Program-made: the position numbers and the translations under genes
The notes under the pieces: model-generated
The model's database searches: none
Seen by the model: the letters and a program-made list of their open reading frames with translations, nothing else
Told to the model about the DNA's origin: nothing
Source of the DNA: an uncultured Chryseobacterium sp.
GTDB taxonomy: Bacteria > Bacteroidota > Bacteroidia > Flavobacteriales > Weeksellaceae
Assembly: GCA_913775525.1 (NCBI GenBank)
Contig: CAJYLH010000040.1
Location: 1-64,000 of the forward strand
Direction of reading: 5' to 3'
Length of the DNA: 64,000 bases
Part shown: piece by piece, positions 40,281 to 44,648 of the stretch
How positions within the stretch are numbered: position 1 is the first letter of the stretch
How the letters are laid out: every line of letters starts with the position of its first letter

Positions 40281-42767
40281 TTAATGCATCGTATCCCATA
40301 AAGTCATCACTTGTATTTGCTCCAAAGGTTTTGACAGCATGATTTTTTTTGAAGTATGAGGAAGCAGATCAAAAAAATTATCGCTGAAATGGGTATCTCC
40401 CATAAGGTAAACATCTTTAGCCAGAACATCAGTGGAAACCTCTATTTCCGTCGGGGATATGTTCTTTATGCGGACGTTGGGTTTAACAAGCTTTAGATCT
40501 TTTGGCTTAGAGAAGAAATAATTGCGTTCCGTAATTACATGATTTTTTGCATCTTTCAGCATTACATGCAAAAAAATTTCATTTCTGTCTGCATCTCCAA
40601 TGATTTCTTCCAGGGAAAAGGGATCCAGTTTCAATACTCCGTTAGGTCCCAAATTTTTAGTATCAGCGGTTCCCGCCGACCCTTTTTTCTCCCCGTTCAA
40701 GGTTAGGATATCAAAATCCATCGATACATTCTCAAACGTTTTCAATTCATCATTGATCACATAAAAGTTTAAGACATCATCTTTCTCCTCCGGTAATATC
40801 ACCTGGTTTTCAAAGCTCCTTTTCGCCTGGTAATGCAATGCTTTCCAGTTGCCCAGATAATCGACGGATGACCAGGAAACTACCGGCCAGCAGTCATTCA
40901 ACTGCCAGTATAAAGTCCCCATATTGTGTGGCCGTGCCCGGCGGTGGGCTTCGATGGCGACCTGCATTCCGCGGGCTTGCAAAAGCTGGGAAACATAATT
41001 GTACTGAATAAAATCTGCCGGGATTTTGTAATCGCGTGCCATATAGGTATTGATGATCTCCCAGCCCCGCGCATGTTTCTCATGAGCATTGATCACGGCG
41101 TTATCCAGACTTAGATCCGGTTTCACCGAGAACATGGATCTTGTGGTTTCAATCGTTGGCATTCCCTGGAAACCATATTCCGACATGAAACGCCCCACTT
41201 TTTCATTGTATACCTCAAACGGTTGCTCGCCCCACCAAACGCCCCAATAATGGGAATCGCCTTCGGTAAGGCTTTCTTTATGGCCCCAGCCGATCGAAGG
41301 TGAGCTTGGCCAATAGATGGTTTTATCGGAGGCCGCATATTTCTTTATGGCATTGGGAATCACTTCATGGAATATTTTCCTGTAGTCTTTCCATACCTGC
41401 ACCGAATCTTCCCTGGAATATTTGAACTGCTTCTGATAGCCCCAGTTGACAATGGCTTCATCCACTTCATTGTTTCCGCACCACAGAGCCAGCGAAGGAT
41501 GATTCTGAAGCCTTTCCACCTGGTCTTTTACTTCGGCTTCCACATTCTTCTGAAAAAGTTCGTCTGCCGGATAAAAGCTTCCTGCAAACATAAAGTCCTG
41601 CCACACCAGGATTCCGTTTTCATCACAGGCTTTATAAAATTCATCATCCTCATAAATGCCGCCGCCCCAGACCCTGACCATATTCATATGGGCTTCTTTA
41701 CAGTCACGGATGAGTTTCTGGTATTTTTCTTTCGTTATTCTCGGTGAAAAGCTGTCCGCAGGAATCCAGTTGGTTCCTTTGATATAAACCGGATTTCCAT
41801 TCACTTTGAAATAAAATGATATTCCCTGTTCATCTTTTTCCTGTACAAGTTCCACCGTTCTCAAACCGACTTTCTGGAAATGCTCATCTACAGTTGCAGA
41901 GCCCTGCTTGAGGATCACCGATAGTTCATACATGTCCGGCTTTCCCCATCCGTTCGGTTGCCATAGTTTGGGATGATTGATCCTGTATGGCAATACAACA
42001 ACATTCAGTCCCTGTTTTAAAGCCGCTTTTTGGGATCTATGGTTAACATTCAGGATGTAATCTCCTGGCTTTTCTGCGATGATTTCTGCCCGGATGTTCA
42101 GTTCTGCTTTTTGTTTTGTCAATGACTTTTGCTCAATTCTGACCTGCTTAAGCCTGGCCTGGTTCCAGAAATTCAGGTGTACGTCTTTCCAGATTCCTGC
42201 CGTTACCAGCCTCGGTCCCCAGTCCCATCCGAACTGGTATTGTGCCTTTCTCACAAAACTCCTCGGCGATTCCGGCATCGTGAAAGGAACTTTTTTGGCC
42301 CGTTCTTTCCCCGCCTGTACCGCAGACGTGAATTTTACCTGCATTATATTATCGCCTGCTTTGAGGTATGTTTTAACAGGAATTTCCCACGTCCTGAACA
42401 TATTGTCTGTGGTTGCCACCTTTTTTCCGTTAATATAAATTTCCGAGAATGTATCCAGCCCATGGAACACCAGGTCGATGTTCCGGTTTTCCAGCTCCTG
42501 TGAACTGACCTTAAAAACAGTCCGGTACTCCCAGTCTTCATTTTCGATCCACTGGACTTTCTTTTCATTCTCATCTTTAAAAGGATCGGGAATGATGCGG
42601 TTTTGCATCAGGTCAAGATGAACCGTTCCTGGAACCTTTGCCGGAAGCCAGGTATGGTCTTTGGTATTTTTAAACTGCCACTGTTCTGAAGACAGGCTCC
42701 GCTCGGAAAACTGAGCATCAATAAAAGACTGAATGAAAATAAAGGCAAAAAGTAATGTTTTGTTCAT
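40281..42767 (-). CDS. GH2 beta-mannosidase, exported
   Basis: 828 residues with a signal peptide (MNKTLLFAFIFIQSFIDAQ). Order of domains: N-terminal jelly-roll (about 20-200), immunoglobulin-like (about 200-310), TIM barrel (about 320-640) with acid/base Glu in LWCGNNEVDEA and nucleophile Glu in GRFMSEYGFQGMP, then C-terminal beta domains. This is the eukaryote-like GH2 beta-mannosidase layout that removes beta-linked mannose from mannans or from the N-glycan core. Its ATG overlaps the stop of the GxxExxY gene by four bases, so they are translationally coupled. Confidence 0.9.
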   Translation of the reverse strand: MNKTLLFAFIFIQSFIDAQFSERSLSSEQWQFKNTKDHTWLPAKVPGTVHLDLMQNRIIPDPFKDENEKKVQWIENEDWEYRTVFKVSSQELENRNIDLVFHGLDTFSEIYINGKKVATTDNMFRTWEIPVKTYLKAGDNIMQVKFTSAVQAGKERAKKVPFTMPESPRSFVRKAQYQFGWDWGPRLVTAGIWKDVHLNFWNQARLKQVRIEQKSLTKQKAELNIRAEIIAEKPGDYILNVNHRSQKAALKQGLNVVVLPYRINHPKLWQPNGWGKPDMYELSVILKQGSATVDEHFQKVGLRTVELVQEKDEQGISFYFKVNGNPVYIKGTNWIPADSFSPRITKEKYQKLIRDCKEAHMNMVRVWGGGIYEDDEFYKACDENGILVWQDFMFAGSFYPADELFQKNVEAEVKDQVERLQNHPSLALWCGNNEVDEAIVNWGYQKQFKYSREDSVQVWKDYRKIFHEVIPNAIKKYAASDKTIYWPSSPSIGWGHKESLTEGDSHYWGVWWGEQPFEVYNEKVGRFMSEYGFQGMPTIETTRSMFSVKPDLSLDNAVINAHEKHARGWEIINTYMARDYKIPADFIQYNYVSQLLQARGMQVAIEAHRRARPHNMGTLYWQLNDCWPVVSWSSVDYLGNWKALHYQAKRSFENQVILPEEKDDVLNFYVINDELKTFENVSMDFDILTLNGEKKGSAGTADTKNLGPNGVLKLDPFSLEEIIGDADRNEIFLHVMLKDAKNHVITERNYFFSKPKDLKLVKPNVRIKNISPTEIEVSTDVLAKDVYLMGDTHFSDNFFDLLPHTSKKIMLSKPLEQIQVMTLWDTMH

Positions 42768-43144
42768 GGTAATTGATTTACTACTCGATGAATTCCGTTT
42801 TTTATAAGAGGTGTATTGAAATTAATCAGTAAACCAAGCTTCAAATTGGTAAGTTTCAGATAAGTCAGCAACTGTGCCTGAAATATAGGATTTATTTCTA
42901 AAACGGATTTTACTTCAATAATTACTTTATTTTCTACCAAAAGATCAATTTTGTAGGCATTATAAATAATTTCTTCTTTATACTTGAGGGGTAATGACAT
43001 TTGTTGTTGAATATTAAACCCTAAGTATTTTAATTCAAAAGCCAATGCAGTTTCATAAGTGCTTTCTAATAAGCCAACACCTAAGTTTTTTCGTACTTCT
43101 AATGCAGCCCCTATAATTTTATAGGATAATTCATTTTCCGTCAT
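42764..43144 (-). CDS. GxxExxY protein, PD-(D/E)XK nuclease-like
   Basis: 126 residues. The name-giving motif is GVGLLESTYE (about 22-31). The PD-(D/E)XK-type core is KIDLLVENKVIIEVKSV (about 65-81), with D, E and K in the expected spacing. The family (PDDEXK_3) is widespread in Bacteroidota, and its job is unknown. The gene lies immediately beside four tandem copies of a palindromic repeat and is coupled to the beta-mannosidase by a four-base overlap. Unusually for a metabolic operon it is the leading gene. A nuclease acting on the repeat is a hypothesis only. Confidence 0.88.
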   Translation of the reverse strand: MTENELSYKIIGAALEVRKNLGVGLLESTYETALAFELKYLGFNIQQQMSLPLKYKEEIIYNAYKIDLLVENKVIIEVKSVLEINPIFQAQLLTYLKLTNLKLGLLINFNTPLIKNGIHRVVNQLP

Positions 43145-43189
43145 TGATGTTTTATTTATTTACTACAAATATGATTGCTTTTTATTTGT

Positions 43190-43392
43190 GACGCAAAGAT
43201 TTATTTAAAATTCTTTTATTGAGATAGCAAAGAGTGAATCAACTTGGTTGATTTGATGAAGCGTACATATCCATACGCTCTATCAGTGGCGTAGCCACAA
43301 TACTTTGCTACCTAAAAATCTGCATACTGAAGATGAATCTTTGCGTTTAATTGAGTGACAGAATCTTGTTAAACAGCTCATTTTATATTTTT
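43190..43392. repeat. Nested-palindrome tandem repeat, copy 1
   Basis: First of four tandem units of about 203 bp. Outer inverted ends are ACGCAAAGATT and AATCTTTGCGT, the second stem is TAGCAAAG/CTTTGCTA, and inside are three hairpins: AATCAAC-TTG-GTTGATT, AGCGTA/TACGCT and GTGGC-GTA-GCCAC. The first loop is TTG where other copies have CAA. No coding frame. Confidence 0.85.
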
Positions 43393-43594
43393 GACGCAAA
43401 GATTTATTTAAAATTTTTTTATTGAGATAGCAAAGAATGAATCAACCAAGTTGATTTGATGAAGCGTACATGTCCATACGCTCTATCAGTGGCGTAGCCA
43501 CAATACTTTGCTACCTAAAATCTACATACTGAAGATGAATCTTTGCGTTTAATTGAGTGACAGAATCTTATTAAATAGCTCATTTTATATTTTT
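43393..43594. repeat. Nested-palindrome tandem repeat, copy 2
   Basis: Best-formed unit. Outer stem 43394-43404 with 43538-43548 (11 bp); second stem 43428-43435 with 43506-43513 (8 bp); hairpins at 43440-43456 (7-bp stem), 43463-43482 (6-bp stem) and 43489-43501 (5-bp stem). The drawing is a three-armed cloverleaf on a two-part stem. Confidence 0.88.
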
Positions 43595-43798
43595 GACGCA
43601 AAGATTTATTTAATTTTTTTACATTGAGATAGCAAAGAATGAATCAACCAAGTTGATTTGATGAAGCGTACATATCCATACGCTCTATCAATGGCGTAGC
43701 CACAATACTTTGCTACCTAAAAAATCTACATACTGAAGATGAATCTTTGCGTTTAATTGAGTGACAGAATCTTATTAAATAGCTCATTTTATATTTTT
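43595..43798. repeat. Nested-palindrome tandem repeat, copy 3
   Basis: Same layout. The third hairpin is ATGGC-GTA-GCCAC, with a closing A-C mismatch, intermediate between copies 1-2 (G-C) and copy 4 (A-T). Confidence 0.85.
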
Positions 43799-43975
43799 GA
43801 CGCAAAGATTTATTTAAAATTCTTTTATATTGAGATAACAAAGAATGAATCAACCAAGTTGATTTGATGAAGCGTACATATTCATAAGCTCTATCAATGG
43901 CGTAGCCATAATACTTTGCTACCTAAAAAATTTACGTACTATAAATCTTTGCGCTTAAATTAAGTGCATTCAATT
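43799..43975. repeat. Nested-palindrome tandem repeat, copy 4
   Basis: The last unit is somewhat degenerate: TAACAAAG in the second stem, AGCGTA/TAAGCT in the second hairpin, and ATGGC-GTA-GCCAT in the third. It ends a few bases before the cutC stop. Confidence 0.82.
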
Positions 43976-43982
43976 TTTGATA

Positions 43983-44648
43983 TTAAGCATTCTTTAACGC
44001 GACTACCTCATCAGCATCCGCGAAAGCTCCGCCGTCTGTAATAGCAGAAGAATGAAAGTATGCTGCCTTGGTATACTCCCGGATGCCGGAAATATTGCCA
44101 GACCGCAGCCCGCCGCCGACCAGGATTTCAATTCTTCCATCGGATAATTCCACCAGTTTTTTTAAGTTTTCTGTGCCTTCTGACACATTGGGTTTCTGGC
44201 CTGAGGTAAGGATGGTTGTAAAACCGCACTCGATCACCTGCTCCAGGGAAGTTTCCAGATCTCCGGCACGGTCAAAGGCACGGTGAAAAGTACAGGGATA
44301 AGGTTGTGCCAATGTAACGAGTTCTTTATTCTGAACAATATTAACCTGATCATTCTCATCCAGGATTCCGAATACAAAACCATCGACTTTCAAGGTCTTC
44401 AGCCGGACCAGATCCGATTTCATCTGTTCGAACTCCTCCTCTGAGTAGGTAAAATCTCCGCCGCGGGGACGGATCATCACAAAGATGGGGATGTTTATTT
44501 TTTCCCTGAGCTGCTTTACGGTTTCAAAATCCGGCGTGGTACCGCCTTCGCTCAGCCCGTCACACAGTTCGATCCGGTCGGCTTCGTTCTTAAAGGCAAT
44601 CATTGCCGATTCCGGATTAAAGCAGGCTATTTCTATTTTTGACATCAA
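43983..44648 (-). CDS. cutC: CutC-family protein
   Basis: 221 residues with the CutC TIM-barrel pattern: EIACFNPESAMIAFKNEADRIELCDGLSEGGTTPDFETV at the N-terminus, FVMIRPRGGDFTYSEEE, TFHRAFDRAGD and ILTSGQ. Linked by old genetics to copper homeostasis in E. coli, but its biochemical role is unsettled. It follows the glycosylasparaginase by 49 bases on the same strand and so is probably in the same operon. Its 3' end abuts the tandem palindromic repeats. Confidence 0.9.
   Translation of the reverse strand: MMSKIEIACFNPESAMIAFKNEADRIELCDGLSEGGTTPDFETVKQLREKINIPIFVMIRPRGGDFTYSEEEFEQMKSDLVRLKTLKVDGFVFGILDENDQVNIVQNKELVTLAQPYPCTFHRAFDRAGDLETSLEQVIECGFTTILTSGQKPNVSEGTENLKKLVELSDGRIEILVGGGLRSGNISGIREYTKAAYFHSSAITDGGAFADADEVVALKNA

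Follow-up and report, generated by a model that had tools for sequence, protein, structure and literature searches.

REPIN-RAYT systems, as set out in parts of PMC3116915 and PMC8266576, combine short palindromic, hairpin-forming, intergenic and multi-copy elements, which are built from repetitive extragenic palindromes (REPs), with a cognate nuclease-type gene, the REP-associated tyrosine transposase (RAYT); the elements cluster beside this gene and the repeat type is matched to the protein. For the palindrome, a GTAG or CGTC tag is described in a part of PMC3733652. We analysed 64,000 nucleotides of contig CAJYLH010000040.1 (the window) from an uncultured Chryseobacterium sp. (GCA_913775525.1) and found an array of four tandem units that are likewise palindromic, hairpin-forming, intergenic, multi-copy and near a nuclease-type gene, here of the GxxExxY family (TIGR04256/PF13366). 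We propose, with a probability of roughly 0.55, that the array consists of four copies of a gene-less palindromic element with CRCNRAG heptamers at its ends, and that the adjacent GxxExxY nuclease, of the Cas4/RecB fold, is its partner.

GxxExxY is a little-studied nuclease family. Its model matched a gene called cas4 by CRISPRone (PMC8934634), and it is named in a table of PMC12085832; the portions of these two papers that name it state no function. In titles and abstracts of open-licence papers we found no description of an association between GxxExxY and repeats, and open-licence literature yielded nothing on PDDEXK_3 with repeats or on the motif k-mers.

Array and adjacent nuclease gene

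43183..43966 (no strand): whole array, four tandem units with ~47-nt spacers
43191..43346 (no strand): unit 1, with hairpin 1 inverted relative to units 2-4
43394..43548 (no strand): unit 2
43596..43752 (no strand): unit 3
43800..43954 (no strand): unit 4, with one change in each stem
43192..43198 (plus strand): outer heptamer CGCAAAG of unit 1
43193, 43227, 43396, 43430, 43598, 43632, 43802: GCAAAG cores in the array
43303, 43339, 43506, 43541, 43708, 43745, 43914, 43947: CTTTGC cores in the array
42764..43144 (minus strand): GxxExxY/PDDEXK_3 nuclease gene, 126 aa, start codon toward the array

Measured from outer stem to outer stem, the four units lie within 43191-43954 with starts 203, 202 and 204 bp apart, and BLAST similarity spans 43183-43966. 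A preliminary description of this DNA had given the same tandem copies and periods, as well as nested outer and inner stems around three hairpins, and both are borne out on re-reading. The outer stem is ACGCAAAGATT/AATCTTTGCGT and the inner stem TAGCAAAG/CTTTGCTA; that is, CGCAAAG outside and (A)GCAAAG inside, inverted around the hairpins, with the inner heptamer copy lacking its first C. Unit 4 differs by a single change in each of its outer (CTTTGCGC) and inner (TAACAAAG) stems. Hairpin 1 of unit 1 reads as the exact reverse complement of its counterpart in units 2-4. A CRISPR (clustered regularly interspaced short palindromic repeats) array needs unique spacers; the three spacers here are near-copies of each other, and this candidate was rejected. 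Folding, proposed as a check in the preliminary description, was run on unit 2 with its spacer and gave -32.3 kcal/mol as DNA (z -6.1), -55.1 kcal/mol as plus-strand RNA (z -6.1) and -51.1 kcal/mol as minus-strand RNA (z -5.1); in all three cases none of 200 shuffles folded as low. An Rfam search of the window returned no family at threshold.

A gap of 47 bp separates the array from the start of the GxxExxY gene. This gene had been overlooked before, and the earlier remark that no transposase is present was misleading because this PD-(D/E)XK nuclease gene sits so close. Its product is a clear family member (TIGR04256, E 2e-41, 141 bits against a cut-off of 35; PF13366, E 5.7e-40, 136.8 bits against a cut-off of 22); PF13366 was the only match at E ≤ 0.001, with TIGR04256 as the sole other model. 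Residues G24, E27, Y30, D67, E77 and K79 are invariant across 31 sequences including the window protein. RecB and Cas4 nucleases carry their motifs in the order E, D, ExK, QxxxY, and the window protein has the same fold and the same order. It differs from Cas4 in that its 126 residues include no cysteine and therefore offer no iron-sulfur cluster, and from Cas4/RecB-type nucleases in being linked to genomic repeats. PF13366/GxxExxY proteins occur in 55 of 60 genus genomes and in 60 of 118 phylum genomes, with up to 12 matches in one.

A second GxxExxY gene of the same genome (contig C35, locus L040:3780-4440) is enclosed by nested inverted repeats that differ in sequence (ACACATTAGA type) and is adjoined by hairpins. 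Elsewhere, two loci (L201 and L203, ~2266-2963) share a GxxExxY cassette of ~700 bp that is 85% identical, has flanks unaligned in BLAST and is bounded by GCTACTCTTT / AAAGAGTAGC ends; the cassette may be another kind of mobile element, one that carries GxxExxY.

Heptamers around GxxExxY genes in other phyla

With a GxxExxY profile built from nine sequences, we kept the best 80 of at least 586 named loci, which come from Bacteroidota, Ignavibacteria, Planctomycetota, Verrucomicrobiota, Chloroflexota, Acidobacteria, Cyanobacteria, Proteobacteria and others. Inverted-repeat flanks exceeded all of 30 base shuffles in 59 of 79 testable GxxExxY genes, against 1 of 61 control open reading frames in the same loci. 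The arms are made of an iterated CRCNRAG heptamer, inverted across the gene, with a spacing peak at 9-10 nt. Its density is 13.8 per kb in forward orientation upstream and 12.8 per kb in reverse orientation downstream, against a background of 1.03 per kb (12-13-fold enrichment); the opposite orientation reaches 5.5 per kb on each side.

The stem heptamer of the window, CGCAAAG, is one form of CRCNRAG. CGCAAAG-rich arms also stand on both sides of a 61% identical homologue from another family of the order (locus L098). Loci with more closely related proteins have a more similar heptamer make-up (Mantel r 0.43, p 0.0005, for the 113 of 140 loci that passed the filters; r 0.35, p 0.0005, for 99 loci outside the genus), a correlation that could also arise if arms and gene share their descent.

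Joint presence of gene and units at the cutC locus

43983..44648 (minus strand): cutC-like gene (PF03932), upstream neighbour in the conserved order
40281..42767 (minus strand): mannosidase-like gene, downstream neighbour in the conserved order, its start overlapping the GxxExxY stop; a putative GH2 mannosidase, judged from the look of its sequence

The order cutC - units - GxxExxY - mannosidase recurs within the genus. Sixty genus genomes were drawn, 59 of them with cutC; all 59 junctions were scanned by script and 15 also by eye, and the test leaves out G039 (no cutC) and G051 (contig end). A full-length GxxExxY gene is present at the locus in 27 genomes, with an open frame of 125-128 aa in every one. 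At least three motif cores precede the gene in all 27 loci and the strict unit pattern in 21; the other six (G014, G023, G034, G037, G056 and G058) are counted by their cores. In all 27, the final unit arm stops 17-77 nt short of the start codon, always upstream. None of the 26 gene-less loci has three or more cores. Gene remnants are found at five further loci (G003, G004, G024, G031 and G050), of which four lack the unit or have a decayed one, while G024 has, by eye, a near-whole unit beside the truncated gene.

These remnant loci form a separate class in the copy-number comparison below and were scored gene-less on a tree of the flanking genes, where G024 is unit-less despite its near-complete unit, counting having stopped at the gene remnant, and G032 is scored absent, though a C-terminal end, and no more, of its GxxExxY gene remains. 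With this scoring, gene and unit each require 17 changes, and they go together (both present or both absent) in all 13 independent pairs (p 0.00024). This agreement shows linkage, not mechanism, because single deletions spanning gene and unit could give the same pattern. At the cutC locus of G003 (C2:4674058-4674745), the full cutC is immediately preceded by three partial copies, spaced 229 nt apart, each covering roughly its first 38 residues.

Units dispersed across the genus

A genome search and copy count, also suggested at the outset, showed the units to be widespread. Unit-like BLAST matches occur in 124 of 148 genus genomes. The strict pattern matches in 52 of the 60 genus genomes, with 295 forward matches in total and 0 to 28 per genome, a few of the matches listed being atypical units; a reversed control pattern has no match in the same 60. 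Across a family sample, the pattern matches in 49 of 148 genomes and 10 of 33 genera, with three control matches. Copies at separate sites in G022 are 82-94% identical (cut-off 82%). Four copy pairs there lose similarity within ~12 nt of the outer heptamers and others share longer flanks; 10 of 19 unit loci in this genome lie, by eye, between converging open frames.

We then investigated one orthologous unit site at 30 loci, taken from among 59 genomes that matched. G022 has an intact unit there, and G017, G027, G048 and G050 have decayed ones. Among the other 25 loci, in six of which the right-hand neighbour was not found, 22 have no motif core and three have one isolated core. A loss of all stems in homologous copies, which the preliminary description regarded as fatal to its reading, is not what is seen: hairpin stems are kept in relatives while their sequence has changed.

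Tandem unit arrays recur at other genomic places: L188 (G006:C18), L189 (G005:C1), L038 (G011:C47) and G012:C45:52622-53159. These are five units ~283 nt apart, four units, repeats ~100 nt apart and three units. In the window's own genome, contig C14 has two units inside a composite tandem repeat of ~450 bp (L009:2980-4130), whose other repeats are of the AACCACAAAAGT.. and CTGCTGAT.. types. Several G022 units (L279-L298) come immediately after terminator-like hairpins that have T runs, and a flank, ACTCCTTTTGCC.., is common to several of them. At one site, the intergenic gap of L299-L305, a solo iterated CGCAGAT-type arm stands beside a CGCAAAG unit; therefore, two heptamer subfamilies seem to meet there.

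Evidence against the proposed partnership and alternative explanations

Several observations weigh against a partnership of units and nuclease. The 80-locus sample is not blind, because its profile alignment (A3) was built from previously inspected loci, some with strong flanking repeats. Outer and inner heptamers of the array are 34 nt apart on the left and 33-37 nt on the right, against the usual 9-10 nt, and with a 34-nt spacing the window unit would be a derived form of the CRCNRAG repeats. Outside the inner heptamer the stem is loosely paired across units (109 of 185 positions Watson-Crick). Joint loss of gene and units can be explained by single deletions of neighbours. No target-site duplication is evident by eye in the G022 unit flanks, nor is there an exact empty site among the 30 loci at the orthologous site. 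Genomes with a full-length gene have more dispersed matches than those without (median 6.5 against 2.0, p 0.0003; 6.0 against 2.0, p 0.001, after subtracting the locus's own units), yet the tree-corrected median p of 0.125-0.375 is not significant. Five genus genomes lack PF13366, and four of them have BLAST matches and three have pattern matches. The genome's own cutC-locus unit is the best match for 12 of 34 dispersed units, ties included, and 11 of these 12 are in G022; in the window's genome, 0 of 4 dispersed units are closest to the window array, units of relatives being closer.

A serious rival, or a second role beside the proposed partnership, is autoregulation through the leader unit. 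The units would be an operator or leader that binds the nuclease or its transcript and controls its expression, the dispersed copies being incidental, and the upstream position 17-77 nt before 27 of 27 start codons at the cutC locus fits this. We nevertheless regard it as unlikely to be the principal explanation, since few of the 295 forward matches in 60 genomes are at the cutC locus and the arms of 59 of 79 GxxExxY genes elsewhere flank both sides, not just the upstream one. It is rather improbable that the units are ordinary REPs or miniature inverted-repeat transposable elements (MITEs) moved by another enzyme, an insertion-sequence transposase or RAYT, with the GxxExxY gene a bystander inserted among them. 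The units do look MITE-like and the genome has two Y1_Tnp genes. However, neither of these is near listed units (14.6 kb away on contig C14; none listed on C24), and the heptamer stands at GxxExxY flanks across phyla in a variant that tracks the protein.

A structured RNA array had been among the first suggestions; as a type III toxin-antitoxin RNA or another tandem-repeat noncoding RNA, it would suit the strong plus-strand fold (z -6.1) and the tandem repeats adjoining a nuclease gene. We now consider it very improbable. The hairpin stems of the 37 distinct units that fitted anchors have 417 Watson-Crick pairs against 2 G.T, 1 A.C and 3 others, and distinct hairpin arms are 97-98% paired within units against ~35% when re-paired, with almost no wobble, figures that are inflated and only indicative because the best hairpin was chosen per region. 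Both strands also fold well, with no Rfam match, and the adjacent gene matched PF13366 and TIGR04256 only. In a comparison with type III toxin families, no ToxN-like endoRNase gene follows the repeats, PF13366 being the only match at E ≤ 0.001, and type III toxin-antitoxin was rejected as a candidate. Least probable of all is a host-useful chromosome feature under selection (terminator-like, nucleoid or recombination site), with GxxExxY a housekeeping resolvase; at least 13 presence changes at one site, the decay of units at the orthologous site and the range of 0 to 28 pattern matches per genome argue against it. The preliminary interpretation is partly supported: among its suggestions, a REP/BIME (bacterial interspersed mosaic element)-like element and a recombination or nuclease target fit best a dispersed, hairpin-bearing, multi-copy intergenic element linked to a nuclease gene.

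A possible mechanism and its meaning

If the proposed partnership is right, the GxxExxY protein would bind the heptamer arms, probably with the unit in a folded-back form, either a hairpin or a single strand, and would cut there. Host repair or replication might then spread, tandemly duplicate or delete units. By standing in the GxxExxY leader, units would bind the fate of the gene to its own target, which possibly also regulates it. The family and such repeats would together form a REP-like, probably selfish system in several bacterial phyla. A clade-specific candidate target motif turns an anonymous, widespread family into a testable nuclease-target system, with a small nuclease of apparently evolvable short-motif recognition. 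If true, this would be a second, independent route to REP-like repeats in bacteria and would account for a class of intergenic repeats that these genomes carry.

Comparison with known systems

MITEs resemble the window-type units in size range, in terminal inverted repeats and in having gene-less versions whose ends resemble those of the versions that carry a gene; heptamer arms are common to units and GxxExxY cassettes, with the same CGCAAAG variant in L098. Unlike in MITEs, the arms are heptamers, usually iterated, and the partner is not a DDE transposase; no target-site duplication is evident in the flanks read by eye.

With REPIN-RAYT the units share the character of dispersed, intergenic, multi-copy palindromes. 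REPIN-RAYT proper was rejected, since the gene beside the repeats belongs to PF13366 and the two Y1_Tnp genes lie elsewhere. An HUH Y1 transposase there is replaced by a PD-(D/E)XK enzyme here, and pairs of 20-40 bp REPs by units of ~145-170 bp with nested heptamer stems; GxxExxY genes, moreover, can be multi-copy per genome. A wider generalization, to which we give about even odds, would have phylum-spanning selfish or programmed elements served by a minimal Cas4/RecB-fold nuclease. This enzyme would recognise iterated CRCNRAK heptamers that bound both the nuclease gene itself and the dispersed gene-less cloverleaf units, each nuclease clade with its own heptamer, and the whole would be an analogue of REPIN-RAYT evolved independently on a PD-(D/E)XK enzyme. 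For the array itself, the best and most economical reading is a REPIN-RAYT-like pair on an unrelated enzyme, whose gene carries the same ends as the units.
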